From Desulfobacteraceae bacterium (GTDB taxonomy: Bacteria; Desulfobacterota; DSM-4660; Desulfatiglandales; Desulfatiglandaceae), in NCBI GenBank assembly GCA_030613055.1, contig JAUWMR010000040.1, positions 1 through 37,414 of the forward strand: DNA of 37,414 nt, written 5' to 3'. Under the pieces are notes generated by a model. The model saw only the letters and a list, made by a program, of their open reading frames with translations, made no database searches and had not been told where the DNA came from. Positions 28,315 to 34,074 of this stretch are shown here, one piece after another (the first letter of the stretch is position 1; every line of letters begins with the position of its first letter). The translations under genes and the position numbers were made by a program.

Positions 28315-29703
28315 CTATTGTATTTGTAGTTTTTTTCTGCGGTAACGGAAGGTATGGTGGTTTATGTTAAGGAGCCTGGCGGCCTTGCTTTCGTTGCCCC
28401 CGGCCATCCTTAAGGCTTCTTCGATATAGAATTTCTCTAAAGATTTTTGCACTGAATCGAGATCTATTCCCTTGGCAGGAAGCGGAGTAAAAGTAGATCT
28501 GCCTTTTTCCTGCTTAAGGGTTTCGGTTTTTTGAAGTCCTTCTATGCCCAAATCCTCAACTTCTAAAACCGGTTCCGTGCCGATGAGTACGGCTCTTTCA
28601 ATGAGATTTTTTAACTCGCGGACATTGCCTGTCCACCTGTACGTCATCAAGGCTTTTTCAGCCTCGGGAGAAATGCCGGTAAGTTTTTTGTCAAATTTCT
28701 TGCTAAACTCGAATAAGAAGTGTTTGACAAGCGGGATAATATCTTCTTTTCGTTCATTCAATGACGGGACATACACCTTAATGACCCCTAACCTGAAATA
28801 GAGATCTTTTCTAAACAGGCCTTCTTTTATCATGCTTTCCAGATCTTTATTCGTGGCGGAGACTACCCTGGTTTGAATTTGTAATTTTTTCGTCCCGCCT
28901 ACCCTGTAAAATTCGCCCTGTTCAAGAAATCGTAAAAGTTTTGCCTGGGCTTCCTGGCTAAGGTCTCCGATCTCGTCAAGAAACAGCGTTCCACCTGCCG
29001 CCTCTTCAAGCATTCCTTTTTTCCCTGACGCATTTGCTCCGCTAAAGGCCCCCTTTTCATACCCGAAGAGTTCGCTTTCGACAAGGTCCTTTGGAATGGC
29101 GGCGCAGTTCAAGGTGATCAAGGGCCCTTTGAAATTCGGGCTCCTGTGATGGATGGCGCCGGCAAGCAATTCCTTGCCCGTGCCTGTCTCGCCAAAAATC
29201 AGTATCGGGGTGTCAGGGCTCTTGGCAACCATGCCAATAAACCCCATCACGTCATGGATGGCATTGCTTTCCCCTATAAAGCAAGGGAGGTTCTCCCTGA
29301 GATACTTTTCCTGAAGGATTTGAACTTCTTTCCTCAGCCTTATAGTTTCGAGGGCGTTATTTATAGATACCTCCAGGCCGTCCATGTGAATGGGTTTTAC
29401 CACATAATCATAGGCACCAAGCTTCATGGCAGAAACCACCGTGTTGACATCTTCATAAGCGGTTATCATGATGATCAGGACATCAGGGTATTGATTCCTG
29501 ATATTTTGCAGAGCTTCGATCCCGTTCATGCCCGGCAAGCCTATGTCAAGTAGAACCAGATCCGGTGGATCGCTTTTCATTGCTTCGATTGCAGCCTCTG
29601 CTGTAGAAAAGGCATCCACACGGTAGTCCGCCTCAAGGGCCATTGTTATCCCTTCCCTTATGGTCTGTTCATCATCAACTATATATATGGAGTAGGTAAT
29701 CAT
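28315..29703 (-). CDS. NtrC-family sigma-54 response regulator
   Basis: A 462-residue protein: receiver (about 4-120; D53 in LVLLDIGLPG, KPI lysine), AAA+ domain (about 142-370; Walker A GETGTGKE, GTLFLDEIGD) and a Fis-type helix-turn-helix at the end (GNESKAARLLNINHHTFRYRRKKL). The sigma-54 contact loop reads GAFSGA instead of GAFTGA, a conservative change. It is coded downstream of the PAS kinase at 30265, its probable partner, but a four-helix-bundle gene and heptamer arrays separate the two. A -24/-12 site lies in the gap on its other side, before the acyl-CoA synthetase operon. Confidence 0.92.
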   Translation of the reverse strand: MITYSIYIVDDEQTIREGITMALEADYRVDAFSTAEAAIEAMKSDPPDLVLLDIGLPGMNGIEALQNIRNQYPDVLIIMITAYEDVNTVVSAMKLGAYDYVVKPIHMDGLEVSINNALETIRLRKEVQILQEKYLRENLPCFIGESNAIHDVMGFIGMVAKSPDTPILIFGETGTGKELLAGAIHHRSPNFKGPLITLNCAAIPKDLVESELFGYEKGAFSGANASGKKGMLEEAAGGTLFLDEIGDLSQEAQAKLLRFLEQGEFYRVGGTKKLQIQTRVVSATNKDLESMIKEGLFRKDLYFRLGVIKVYVPSLNERKEDIIPLVKHFLFEFSKKFDKKLTGISPEAEKALMTYRWTGNVRELKNLIERAVLIGTEPVLEVEDLGIEGLQKTETLKQEKGRSTFTPLPAKGIDLDSVQKSLEKFYIEEALRMAGGNESKAARLLNINHHTFRYRRKKLQIQ

Positions 29704-29722
29704 AATAGTCGCTTCGCTCCCC

Positions 29723-29757
29723 GGTATTGGGTACTGGGTATTGGGTACTGGGTATTG
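29723..29757 (+). repeat. Heptamer array, left of the four-helix-bundle gene
   Basis: Five contiguous seven-base units: GGTATTG, GGTACTG, GGTATTG, GGTACTG, GGTATTG. The same unit (GGGTATT/GGGTACT in another register) occurs on the opposite strand at 30211-30280. The array starts 19 bases before the start codon of the regulator at 29703 and so forms part of its leader. Confidence 0.85.
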
Positions 29758-29769
29758 GTGTATTCTTGC

Positions 29770-30138
29770 TTAACCTACGTCGTGCGCTTTTTTGATCGAA
29801 GTTATGTAAGCATTTAGTTTCTTTGGTAATAGTTCAATGATCTGTTTTATTCCGTTGATTTCATGTGAGATTAGCTTTCGGCGTACGGCTTTTGAAAGCC
29901 AGCTTTTGGTCTCTTCTAAAGACCCCCTGGCATAATAGCAAAAGTTCAGGCGATCTCTAAAATGATATCTGCCGTGTCCTTCTGCCAAGTTTACAGATAT
30001 GGAATCAGCGGCACGAACCAATTGCTTTCCAATAGTATCTTTGGCGAAGTAATCCCATTTGATGCAGATGTCCCATACTTTATCGGCCAATTCCTCAGCC
30101 ATTTGATAAATATCCAAATCTTCAACCTTTAAAACCAT
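29770..30138 (-). CDS. Four-helix-bundle protein (S23 / 23S rRNA intervening-sequence protein family)
   Basis: A 122-residue protein of the four-helix-bundle family first found in intervening sequences of 23S rRNA genes and related to the Avd accessory protein of diversity-generating retroelements. The family blocks are visible: LDIYQMAEELADKVWDI, GKQLVRAADSISVNLAEGHGR, FCYYARGSLEETKSWL and a last helix ending in LNAYI. It has an AAGGAG and starts at 30138. It lies between inverted heptamer arrays (29723-29757 and about 30151-30280), which interrupt a kinase-regulator gene pair. Its molecular role is unknown; RNA binding has been suggested for the family. Confidence 0.85.
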   Translation of the reverse strand: MVLKVEDLDIYQMAEELADKVWDICIKWDYFAKDTIGKQLVRAADSISVNLAEGHGRYHFRDRLNFCYYARGSLEETKSWLSKAVRRKLISHEINGIKQIIELLPKKLNAYITSIKKAHDVG

Positions 30139-30150
30139 CTAACTACTCCT

Positions 30151-30280
30151 TATTGGATATTGGGTAATAGATAATAGGGACCACAACCCAATTCCCAGTC
30201 ACCAGTCCCTAATACCCAATACCTAATACCCAGTACCTAATACCCAATACCTAATACCCAGTACCTAATACCCAATACCC
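30151..30280 (-). repeat. Heptamer array, right of the four-helix-bundle gene
   Basis: Ten contiguous plus-strand units at 30211-30280 (AATACCC, AATACCT, AGTACCT in rotation) are the complement of the GGGTATT/GGGTACT units at 29723-29757. Before them (30151-30210) a degenerate stretch shows units first in one orientation (GGATATT, GGGTAAT, AGATAAT) and then in the other (CCCAGTC, ACCAGTC), making an imperfect hairpin. The array reaches into the 3' end of the kinase gene. Confidence 0.85.
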
Positions 30281-31791
30281 GGATGTTTTTTAATTGGTAT
30301 TTCAATCACGAATTCTGCTCCTCCCCATTTGCTTTTGGATATGCCCAGAGATCCACCGTGATCCGTTATTATCCTGTGACAGAGGCTTAGTCCTATCCCC
30401 GTGCTTTCACTCTTAGTAGTATAAAACGGATCAAATATTTTGTCTATATAAGCCCATGGCACACCAGGACCCGAATCCGAAATCTTTAAGATAATGCTGT
30501 TATCTTCCATGAATGAGGAAACCTCTATTTTCTTTTCTCCATCCATGTTTTTCATGGCCTCAGAGGCATTGGTAATCAGGTTTAAGATCACCTCTTCAAG
30601 CAGGTTGGGATCCGCGTAGAGCGGTTGCAGATCCTCAGATAAGTTTTTTTCAATCTTAATGCCGCTTTTTCGCAATGTGACTGAACAAAGGCCAATGGCA
30701 TCTTCGATAGGTTGATTTATGTCTGTAAAAACCAGCTTGGGCTCACTGGGTTTTGAAAAATCCATGACTCTCCTGATAACAGATTCAATCTTGGTTGAAG
30801 CTGACTGGAGATGTGCGAGAATTCCTTTGACCTTTTCCAGATTTTCCGCGTTATCATAGATCTTTTCCAGGGTGTCCAGGTATATATTGATGCCTGAAAG
30901 AGGGTTTCTTATTTCATGGGCAATGCCGGCAGCTACACGGCCCAGGGAGGTCATCTTATCCTGAATTCTTAAAAGATGTTCCAGTTCCTTTGCCCTGGTA
31001 ATGTCCATCATATTGACCAATATCGCCTTTTCCCCTTGGTATTCAATTGTACTTGCCCGGCAGTGGACCCATTTCATATCGAGTTTGCTATCCTTTTTTC
31101 CAGGGAGATAAAGCCTGAAATCCATATCAAGAGTTAGGATCTCACCAGAAAGCATCTTCTGATAGTTTTGTCTGACCTTCTCAACATCATCCTGCTGGAG
31201 GCCTTCAAAATCCGTGAGTTTAAATGATCGTGGCAACGGCCCAAACAACCTTTCTTGTTCCGGGTTCATATAGATGATTTGATCATTCTGAACGATAAAA
31301 ATGCCGGTGAGTGAATTTTGAACCAGATCCCGGAAGCGCTGTTCACTTTCCCTTATAGCCCTTTCTGCTTGCTTGAGTTCGGTGATATCCAAAAAAGATC
31401 CCACGCTTCGCCTGGTTCCTGGAATCATTGCAACGGTTGCAAACATGTCTTTAACCGTGCCATGTCTATCAATAAATTTATACTCATAATTCCTTGGGGC
31501 GGCATCAGTATCCGTTCTTCGGGTATAGTGATAGTCTTTCATTTTTACAAGTTTATCTTTGTGCGCAACAAAGTCTGTCCAGCTTTTCTTACCCTCTATT
31601 TCCTCTTTGGCGTAGCCGGAGAGATTTTCAAATTCCTTGTTCGCCAGGGATATGGTTGTATCTTCTTCGATAATGATTGTCGCGGTTCCGGTGGTTTCAA
31701 AAAGGGTTCGGTATTTGTCCTCTGATTCTCTGAGGACTTTCTCCACATGCCTGTGATTTTCCGCGGGTTCTTTGCTTTTTGTATTCATCAA
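30265..31791 (-). CDS. Cytoplasmic PAS-domain histidine kinase
   Basis: A 508-residue kinase without membrane segments: PAS 1 (about 23-143, ends GSFLDITELKQAE), PAS 2 (about 149-268, ends MMDITRAKELE), HisKA with H292 in GIAHEIRNPL, and HATPase (about 385-500) with the N box NLITNASEAM, DSGPGVP, FDPFYTTK and GIGLSLC. It should sense an internal signal and phosphorylate the sigma-54 regulator at 28315. The last four codons and the stop (30265-30279, GIGY-stop) are made of the heptamer repeat, so the original C-terminus has been replaced or extended by repeat sequence. Confidence 0.9.
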   Translation of the reverse strand: MMNTKSKEPAENHRHVEKVLRESEDKYRTLFETTGTATIIIEEDTTISLANKEFENLSGYAKEEIEGKKSWTDFVAHKDKLVKMKDYHYTRRTDTDAAPRNYEYKFIDRHGTVKDMFATVAMIPGTRRSVGSFLDITELKQAERAIRESEQRFRDLVQNSLTGIFIVQNDQIIYMNPEQERLFGPLPRSFKLTDFEGLQQDDVEKVRQNYQKMLSGEILTLDMDFRLYLPGKKDSKLDMKWVHCRASTIEYQGEKAILVNMMDITRAKELEHLLRIQDKMTSLGRVAAGIAHEIRNPLSGINIYLDTLEKIYDNAENLEKVKGILAHLQSASTKIESVIRRVMDFSKPSEPKLVFTDINQPIEDAIGLCSVTLRKSGIKIEKNLSEDLQPLYADPNLLEEVILNLITNASEAMKNMDGEKKIEVSSFMEDNSIILKISDSGPGVPWAYIDKIFDPFYTTKSESTGIGLSLCHRIITDHGGSLGISKSKWGGAEFVIEIPIKKHPGIGY

Positions 31792-32199: not shown

Positions 32200-34074
32200 T
32201 CACTCATGGGGTTCCTTTTTCCCATGACTGTAATCTGTGGCATTGAATGTGCGGAGGATTTTTAAGGCCCCCATGAGGTTGTGCTGTATGTTATCGCAAC
32301 GAATCTGGTTGTCATAAACCGTAGTCCGTATGCCACCGTAAACGTATTTACATTTGGATTGAGACACGTAAAACATATCAATTTCGTCTACGAACTGCAA
32401 CTGCATAATGCTCCGAAGCCCTCGGATTATTGCGATGCGATAGGCGTTTATTCGTCTCTCATCGCCGGTTGCTCTGGCCAATCTGAAAGCATCAATCAAT
32501 CCTTCAAGGTAGACGCCTGTGGAAGAGGAATGCGGTGGTCCGAAAGGCCGTTTTGGATCATAAAAGCGGCCAATCGCATCCCGATAACAAACATCGCTAT
32601 GCCACTGTTGTATGTTCAGCAGCCAGTCGTTCATCTCGAAGATGAAGTTCTTAAGGTTTTTGTCTCTGGTTTGTTTCCATACTTTGTAGCAGGCCTGGGT
32701 GTGCCATGGAATGAAGGCCGGATTGCGATTGACTATATTGAGATGCCAGTTTTGATAATACTTAAATGACTTCATAAATCGCTTTAGCAGCCGTTCATCT
32801 CTATTGTGTTCATAGAGAATCGCCCACAACAGCAATGTCTCGCCGGGGTAGAAATTCTGGTTATCAGTGCGGCCTTTAGGCTTGAAGAAGGTAGTAAATG
32901 AGCCGTCTTTATTCCATAGAAAATTAATTGTGCGCAGTAGAGCGGCCTCCTGATGGGACCATTTATCGCGGTTGGGATGCATGATCAGCGCCATCGTTGC
33001 CACGGCAAGGGCACCTAACTTGATTTTATTATTCCACGCAATGAGCCCGTATTTTCCATCTTCGCGATAGAAGTGCCGGAGGTTATAATCGATATTTTTC
33101 TCGATGATATTCCATATGGTCGTATTGTTGATTTCAGTAGCGACCTGTTCAAGAGCGACCGTTGCCAACCACTGCCGAATCATGTTGTTTGACGCTGATT
33201 CACGGCCTGTACTTGGGTAATATTTGTATGTCAGACGGCCATCTTTATGAATATTGTTAAATATCCATTCTGAGGCAAGATCTGCCAGCTTCCGTGTGTT
33301 TTCCTGGGTAACATTGCTGATCGGCACAAAATTATTGCCCCGCTCCATCAAGTGGGCTTTACATTTCTCGCCAAGTTTGACTAAAATTTGCTCGCCTTCG
33401 AATATACGATAGCGAACCTTGTTCTTCATCTCTTCCTTAGTAAGGCCATGTTTTATCTTAAAAAGCTTGATTAAACGCTTGTTGGAACGGTTGCTTGCAA
33501 TAGCATATGTTGGAGTAAAGCGTTCAACATTATCATGGTAGGATATTTCAAGCCCATTTACGCCCCGATGAATATTTGATAACAGTTTTGTTCTCTCGAA
33601 TGCCACCTTAGGGTTGATCTTACGGAATGAATGGCAAAATGCGATTTCAATTGTGTCGATTTTGGATGCTTCCTCGTCACTGAGATTCGCCTTCGAACAA
33701 TTGATGGCACGCATAAGGGCCCTGGCAGGCCTTTCATTTATTCCCCACGCGTCTGCCATTCGCCTGCCCTTGCTTCGTAAGGCAGCATAGACCACCCGGG
33801 CTTTTTTTGAAATTCTTGTGGGTAGCTTATGACCCTTGAGTTTTTTATCATTCCATATACTGACAACTTCATTTGCCACAGTCTCTAAATCCTGTCTCCC
33901 AGGCAGATCAGAGGCATTATAAAAAAGGTTGACAGGGTTGTTTTCCTGGTGCCCTTTTAGATCAGCGGTATGGCCGAAAATATAAGAATTCCCGGAAATA
34001 ACGATAGATATTGCGATTAATACGAATGCAACAGATGAAACGAGATATTTGCTTTTTGACGGTTTTTTATACAT
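32200..34074 (-). CDS. Exported or membrane-anchored protein, alpha/alpha-toroid-like C-terminal half
   Basis: A 624-residue protein. A hydrophobic stretch (about 10-30, VSSVAFVLIAISIVIS) acts as signal or anchor, so the rest lies in the periplasm. Residues about 85-250 are basic and helical, unrecognised. Residues about 265-610 show repeated helical hairpins with WNN, FYPGETLLLWAILYEHNRD, QACYKVWKQTRDKN and GVYLEGLIDAFRLARATGD, the rhythm of (alpha/alpha)6 toroids in sugar epimerases, some glycoside hydrolases and terpenoid-cyclase-like proteins. No catalytic residues can be named. It lies between two copies of the deacetylase 3' end and is transcribed in the same direction as them. Confidence 0.5.
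   Translation of the reverse strand: MYKKPSKSKYLVSSVAFVLIAISIVISGNSYIFGHTADLKGHQENNPVNLFYNASDLPGRQDLETVANEVVSIWNDKKLKGHKLPTRISKKARVVYAALRSKGRRMADAWGINERPARALMRAINCSKANLSDEEASKIDTIEIAFCHSFRKINPKVAFERTKLLSNIHRGVNGLEISYHDNVERFTPTYAIASNRSNKRLIKLFKIKHGLTKEEMKNKVRYRIFEGEQILVKLGEKCKAHLMERGNNFVPISNVTQENTRKLADLASEWIFNNIHKDGRLTYKYYPSTGRESASNNMIRQWLATVALEQVATEINNTTIWNIIEKNIDYNLRHFYREDGKYGLIAWNNKIKLGALAVATMALIMHPNRDKWSHQEAALLRTINFLWNKDGSFTTFFKPKGRTDNQNFYPGETLLLWAILYEHNRDERLLKRFMKSFKYYQNWHLNIVNRNPAFIPWHTQACYKVWKQTRDKNLKNFIFEMNDWLLNIQQWHSDVCYRDAIGRFYDPKRPFGPPHSSSTGVYLEGLIDAFRLARATGDERRINAYRIAIIRGLRSIMQLQFVDEIDMFYVSQSKCKYVYGGIRTTVYDNQIRCDNIQHNLMGALKILRTFNATDYSHGKKEPHE

Follow-up and report, generated by a model that had tools for sequence, protein, structure and literature searches.

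A four-helix-bundle gene between inverted short-period arrays, a probable small mobile unit at bacterial gene junctions

The window, which is the whole stretch of 37,414 nucleotides that was analysed, makes up one contig, C83, in a draft genome of 4.26 Mb. It carries a small gene of the S23 family, located between the genes of a histidine kinase and a response regulator and enclosed by two arrays of short tandem repeats. The features of this locus are as follows.

28315..29703, minus strand: NtrC-type response regulator, the downstream host gene (Pfam); relatives have its orthologue immediately after the kinase
29722..30280, minus strand: the entire inserted element of about 559 bp, oriented in sense with the kinase-regulator operon (12 relatives have an empty site here and one has an array alone)
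29722..29758, plus strand: left array, downstream of the S23 gene, five heptamer units GGGTATT/GGGTACT (TRF 14-mer, 100% match, score 72)
29770..30138, minus strand: S23 / four-helix-bundle (23S_rRNA_IVP) gene, 122 amino acids (PF05635, E 1e-24; TIGR02436 four helix bundle protein, E 1.3e-24; the profile matches the solved structures 2gsc and 2rld)
30186..30280, minus strand: right array, upstream of the S23 gene, about ten clear and further degenerate heptamers GGGTATT/AGGTACT, inverted to the left array and overlapping the kinase stop codon (TRF score 130; inverted match score 26.5, control 99th percentile 12)
30265..31791, minus strand: PAS histidine kinase, the upstream host gene (Pfam), in which the alignment with orthologues stops at about residue 503

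The S23 gene is the only gene within the element, and the profile matches confirm the family to which an earlier note on this DNA had assigned it. The element lies between protein genes and not in a 23S rRNA gene, and because it is not in rRNA we do not class it as an rRNA intervening sequence. In plus-strand letters the left array (29722-29758) reads GGTATTGGGTACTGGGTATTGGGTACTGGGTATTG, while the clear part of the right array (30208-30279) reads CCTAATACCCAATA and has a degenerate tail that extends back to about 30186. The arrays are inverted, since the left heptamers are on the plus strand and the right heptamers on the minus strand. The count given in the earlier note, five and ten exact units of GGGTATT and GGGTACT, stands in part: there are five units on the left and ten clear ones on the right, but not all of them are exact. 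The units, all of the GGGTAYT type, are GGGTATT, GGGTACT, AGGTATT and AGGTACT, and the right side has degenerate extra units. The last codons of the kinase (PGIGY and the stop) are read from the right array.

Periodicity was scored as the longest self-match at shift p (+1/-1.5). In random 250-bp windows of the same genome, 1% score above 9.5 at p = 7; in the window, one array scores 37 at p = 7 and 49 at p = 14, and the other scores 19 and 22. A comparison of the two flanks in inverted orientation gives 26.5, against a mean of 8.4, a 99th percentile of 12 and a maximum of 14 in 600 random pairs from the same genome, in agreement with the earlier statement that the arrays stand on both sides in opposite orientation. 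Ordinary genes have an inverted flank match of at least 14 in 1.6% of 309 cases (400 kb of genomic background, taken as 20-kb stretches). The stem between the two arms is a predicted duplex of -64 kcal/mol. A long hairpin joining the ends, as proposed earlier, is consistent with this folding and with an intervening sequence of Coxiella (PMC4990558), but a role in the element of the window has not been shown.

Two other parts of the window can be mentioned here. Between the kinase and a histone-deacetylase-family gene, at 32200-34074, there is a minus-strand open reading frame of 624 amino acids that no Pfam or NCBIfam model matched. Furthermore, a Y1_Tnp (IS200-like) transposase gene at 1417-2208 is surrounded, within 700-2320, by GGCCCGACCCCA repeats in both orientations and is RAYT-like. 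Its inverted repeats are unlike those of the S23 element; an action in trans is not excluded.

Without the element, kinase and regulator are neighbours. In 12 relatives only 0-15 nucleotides separate the kinase stop from the regulator start, and in the window the kinase frame runs into the array. Thus the element splits an otherwise adjacent pair, as had been suggested, and empty sites do exist between the orthologous kinase and regulator. In another genus (L167), the same junction carries a GGGTATT array only, TCCGGGTATTGGGT..., with no S23 gene. We attribute this array to common descent, because its word and junction are those of the window; an independent origin would have spoken against the earlier reading.

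Filled and empty alleles of one site are also found on cyanobacterial plasmids, and the difference is precise in the relatives and plasmids compared. Plasmids of Trichormus and Scytonema are filled and those of Nostoc and Tolypothrix are empty, with a flank identity of 97%, an insert of 428 bp and GTAAT on both sides. The filled form reads AAAAAGTAAT, the insert AAATCAG...CTTCTTT and GTAATTAAC, and its empty counterpart AAAAAGTAATTAAC. Nostoc ATCC 53789 has an insert of 417 bp relative to the empty pNsp_c, with TTCTA on both sides; here the filled form reads TTTAGGTTCTA, AATCAGG...CTGGA and TTCTAGTT, and the empty one TTTAGGTTCTAGGTT. Another pair is composed of a filled Calothrix and an empty Tolypothrix plasmid. 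The cyanobacterial inserts are 428, 417 and 416 bp long and are located at stop/start junctions. A putative 5-bp duplication can be seen at two clean junctions (GTAAT, TTCTA), the remaining pairs being too diverged, and the empty plasmid sites carry no array whatsoever. In a type III-B operon, an S23 element is present between cas10 and cmr3 of Picosynechococcus PCC 7003 (L334) and missing in PCC 7002 (L337). A decayed copy in Nostoc C052 (L327) consists of an array and the start of S23, and the junction that follows in that operon is occupied in pNsp_c by a different S23 element (L343). No empty site was found for the Riemerella plasmids, and among the collected genomes there was no close empty relative for the ribonucleotide-reductase insertion of Nostoc.

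The architecture recurs widely. The window genome has 24 PF05635 matches, and most of its S23 genes are enclosed by inverted short-period arrays with a word that differs each time (GTGACGA, GGACTGA, GATTGAA; GTTGGGTTT and CTAAAGTGA with period 9; GGATTCAA with period 8). An inverted match of at least 14 is reached in 60 of the 98 loci that come from the window genome or from relatives, compared with 0.8% of cross-locus pairs. Enclosure by inverted arrays is likewise seen in phylum-wide samples. The 79 named loci, which span Nitrospirota, Planctomycetota, Acidobacteriota, Chloroflexota, Cyanobacteria, Bacteroidota, Bacillota, candidate phyla and others, reach this match in 67% of cases, with 2.2% for cross-locus pairs and 15% for the direct orientation. 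Taken together, the 219 S23 loci represent many phyla, and in about 60-70% of them the flanks carry arrays that match in inverted orientation, against 1-5% of cross-locus controls and the 1.6% of ordinary genes. The sampled loci are the top-scoring matches of each search and not a random sample. About one third of them (e.g. L283, L297, L254) lack clear inverted arrays, by decay or by genuine absence. The host operons are unrelated and include cas, conjugation, ribonucleotide reductase and secretion genes. In the phage records only Avd-like proteins of Pseudoalteromonas phages were found.

Had the flanks of other family members been free of heptamer enrichment, the earlier reading would have failed; the enrichment is strong. 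The description as seven-base arrays holds for the window, and it missed the variation of the word by locus and the existence of periods of 8 and 9. Among 164 loci with strong arrays the period is 7 in 128, 8 in 26, 9 in 8 and 6 in 2, and a strict 7-bp rule is thus rejected. The number of units per arm has a median near 5, which would suit a pentamer and which we do not count as evidence. S23 genes with their arrays adjoin each other in groups of two or more at L204, L209, L146 and L287, as if insertions favoured each other's vicinity.

The array word is inherited with the S23 protein. For pairs of loci with unrelated outer flanks, the word is shared in 94% of cases at an S23 identity of at least 75%, in 64% at 60-75%, in 25% at 50-60% and in about 0.7% below. 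This rules out a locus-specific word that arises as a de novo target duplication. The period also clusters on the S23 tree, with 21 changes against a shuffled mean of 28.9 and none of 200 shuffles as low. Within a locus, the left and right arms have a similarity of 0.74 in inverted and 0.47 in direct orientation. The value of 0.74 is constant at every divergence, while the similarity of arrays between loci drops from 0.78 to 0.47 as divergence grows; the upper identity bins are approximate (one to four high-identity pairs each). As judged from these comparisons, both arms change their word in concert.

Where both neighbours are on the same strand, S23 is sense to them in 141 of 153 cases and opposed in 12 (p = 4e-29). 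This bias could stem from selection for S23 expression and not from the insertion mechanism. Neighbours share one strand in 82% of cases against a background of 79%, which is not a clear enrichment. Related S23 copies at different loci have a median dN/dS of about 0.15. This indicates purifying selection, and the S23 protein therefore matters to the element. Its median net charge is +3, and the two solved S23 structures (PDB entries 2gsc and 2rld) have five chains each.

Arrays without a gene are common, with 38 solo arrays of period 7-9 or 14 in 400 kb of the window genome. Their words fit those of S23 elements better than reversed controls do (p = 9e-6). Recurrent ones (L055-L074) include CTAAAGTGC, GATTGAA, GGACTGA and GTGACGA, and comprise 7-, 8- and 9-mers. 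Two further GGGTATT arrays are located at or just past stop codons at operon junctions (L353 and L354, on contigs C14 and C56). We read solo arrays as the remains left after loss of the gene and the far arm, and it is not excluded that they are seeds instead of relics.

The closest known system is the intervening sequence in the 23S rRNA of Coxiella burnetii, which has 428 nucleotides, an S23p open reading frame, GACAGAT heptamers and a 28-bp terminal stem (PMC4990558). It is excised by RNase III and a horizontal origin is suspected; its S23 protein is probably not expressed (PMC4990558). It shares with the elements described here the S23 frame, terminal inverted repeats that form a stem, heptamers beside the frame and a sporadic distribution (PMC4990558), and its length is close to the 416-428 bp of the cyanobacterial plasmid inserts. 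It differs in location, the window element being between protein genes, and the arrays described here are longer, have a locus-specific word and occur at sites with empty and filled alleles. No 23S rRNA motif was found near the S23 loci scanned for one, so that the link to rRNA rests on the Coxiella work alone.

Heptamer repeat arrays are known in cyanobacteria as STRR. Such arrays have been described singly, with the word TAACTGA (PMC4679880), as the GGGAATC/GGGGAYT heptamers of Xanthomonas and Nostoc, some in convergent pairs and generally without association to mobile elements (PMC4692102), and as heptanucleotide elements of Geobacter (PMC2700814). They resemble the S23 arrays in repeat length and intergenic position and, in Xanthomonas, in their convergent inverted pairs. 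Similar heptamers have been interpreted as regulatory (PMC4679880, PMC2700814), and neither S23 nor four helix is mentioned in the text of these three papers. Avd of diversity-generating retroelements is structurally related to S23, with a homologous four-helix-bundle fold (PMC10053308); unlike in those retroelements, there is no reverse transcriptase at the window locus. REPIN/RAYT and miniature inverted-repeat elements are also short, bounded by inverted repeats and non-autonomous in appearance. However, the S23 element has no internal Y1 or DDE transposase, and it has tandem-array ends with a word that varies by clade. For rRNA intervening sequences, then, the gene and the stem were known before, and in one case also the heptamers. 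A general class of mobile elements, or any description that unites the S23 gene, the arrays and mobility, was not found in the open-access literature; an earlier account elsewhere is possible.

The comparisons establish, as far as sequences can without an experiment, that gene and arrays are mobile as a unit, are inserted in sense at gene junctions, encode a conserved protein and have arms that evolve in concert. The earlier inference of one mobile unit is upheld by the empty sites, by the inheritance of word and protein together at unrelated loci and by recurrence in many phyla. We consider it highly probable that an S23 gene, together with the inverted tandem arrays of a 7-9-bp word at its two sides, is a small mobile unit; no movement was observed. 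Its mechanism can only be inferred. Read-through from the host operon would transcribe the element. Its arrays would pair as a long stem and so define where the element ends, either in RNA, like the stem that RNase III uses in rRNA intervening sequences, or in single-stranded DNA. This step is tentative, and we hold it a little short of even. The small basic S23 protein, with its five chains in crystals, may bind the nucleic acid of its own element by recognising the periodic arrays, and would be needed for copying or joining. Cutting and joining could be done by S23 itself, a host factor or another factor; the enzyme is unidentified, and the analysis turned up neither a recombinase nor a reverse transcriptase that accompanies S23 elements consistently. 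Solo arrays would be products of decay, and copies that inserted into rRNA would account for the 23S rRNA intervening sequences.

Two explanations leave out mobility of the whole. The arrays could be ordinary host repeats, produced by replication slippage at intercistronic sites, in or beside which S23 genes merely land. Such a view has for it the frequency of solo arrays, including the GGGTATT arrays at the orthologous site of L167 and at the two other junctions. Against it, the empty plasmid sites carry no array, the word tracks the S23 protein at unrelated sites, the two arms share one word and are inverted to each other, the words of solo arrays match those of S23 elements as relics would, and the Nostoc C052 copy is a visible relic; we find it very improbable. 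We give almost no credence to a fixed regulatory cassette that would control, for example, translation or mRNA processing of the kinase-regulator operon. The placement between two genes of one operon, the strong predicted hairpin and the regulatory role ascribed to similar heptamers (PMC4679880, PMC2700814) would suit it, but the cassette is missing from 12 orthologous operons and its architecture is found in unrelated ones.

Two others are sub-cases of the mobile-unit reading and concern the enzyme. The element could be a non-autonomous retroelement, dependent on a reverse transcriptase that acts in trans, and S23 would then play the part of Avd. The kinship of the two proteins (PMC10053308), the sense orientation in operons and two RVT_1 genes of the window genome (on contigs C73 and C49, none on C83) are compatible with it. 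However, S23 load shows no significant association with the presence of a reverse transcriptase (Fisher p = 0.19), and eight genomes with at least seven S23 matches have none. These are incomplete drafts; on present evidence the element has no need of a reverse transcriptase acting in trans. As a requirement it was tested and is unsupported, and as an explanation it is unlikely, though it cannot be set aside. Alternatively, an insertion-sequence transposase could move the element in trans as a miniature transposon with S23 as a passenger. About 15 decayed S23-fragment copies with GGATCATCTCC / GGAGAAGAACC ends, some with an apparent 8-bp AT-rich duplication, and a single ISL3 transposase encoded in the window genome point that way. 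Other S23 elements have neither those ends nor any common terminal sequence, their array ends differ by clade, a passenger would not need the purifying selection seen on S23, and the ISL3 gene has no such ends in the sequence examined, all of which leave this explanation improbable.

The mobile-unit reading can be extended. The S23-array elements would be a separate pan-bacterial class without a classical recombinase, in which the S23 pentamer recognises its own arrays and is the mobility factor. Each round of copying would rebuild one arm from the other, so that the word drifts while the arms match, and 23S intervening sequences and many genomic heptamer arrays would be members or relics. We offer this as a conjecture that we doubt more than we believe. 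If the mobile-unit reading holds, genes annotated merely as 'four helix bundle protein' or 'S23 ribosomal protein' are the core of a widespread mobile element, rRNA intervening sequences gain an origin after more than 30 years, and a good part of the heptamer arrays, earlier taken as regulatory or G-quadruplex elements, is explained. The same reading would connect three oddities that were described apart from each other, namely the insertions in rRNA genes, the orphan 'four helix bundle' genes, of which there are thousands, and the heptamer repeats that have had no explanation. Guilt by association calls for caution, as S23 genes in CRISPR, conjugation and immune operons may be mere insertions.

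The miniature copies mentioned above form a family of about 15 in the window genome, with ends GGATCATCTCCAAATTGG and TTGGGAGAAGAACC (also given as GGATCATCTCC / GGAGAAGAACC), 8-mer arrays inside and fragments of S23 in a decayed state. They measure 76-422 bp where both ends could be located (L008, L013, L018, L022, L024, L065, L074 and L345-L352; contigs C3, C4, C18, C23, C34, C38, C45, C53, C68, C76, C84, C85, C88 and C97). The apparent 8-bp AT-rich duplication is seen, for example, at L065 (ATATTTAT). We take the ends to resemble those of ISL3-type miniature elements. The family is possibly a derivative of the S23 element moved by ISL3, and this one branch, with its 8-mer arrays and ISL3-like ends, may have been captured by an insertion-sequence transposase, which leaves the remaining elements unexplained. 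In a complete genome, at L298 and L299 (G267:C1 3064000-3088500), clusters of whole and partial near-identical S23 elements adjoin a CRISPR array, with the repeat GTCGCAATCCCTTCGTAATCAGGTCAATGAAGCAGAG as seen in L298.
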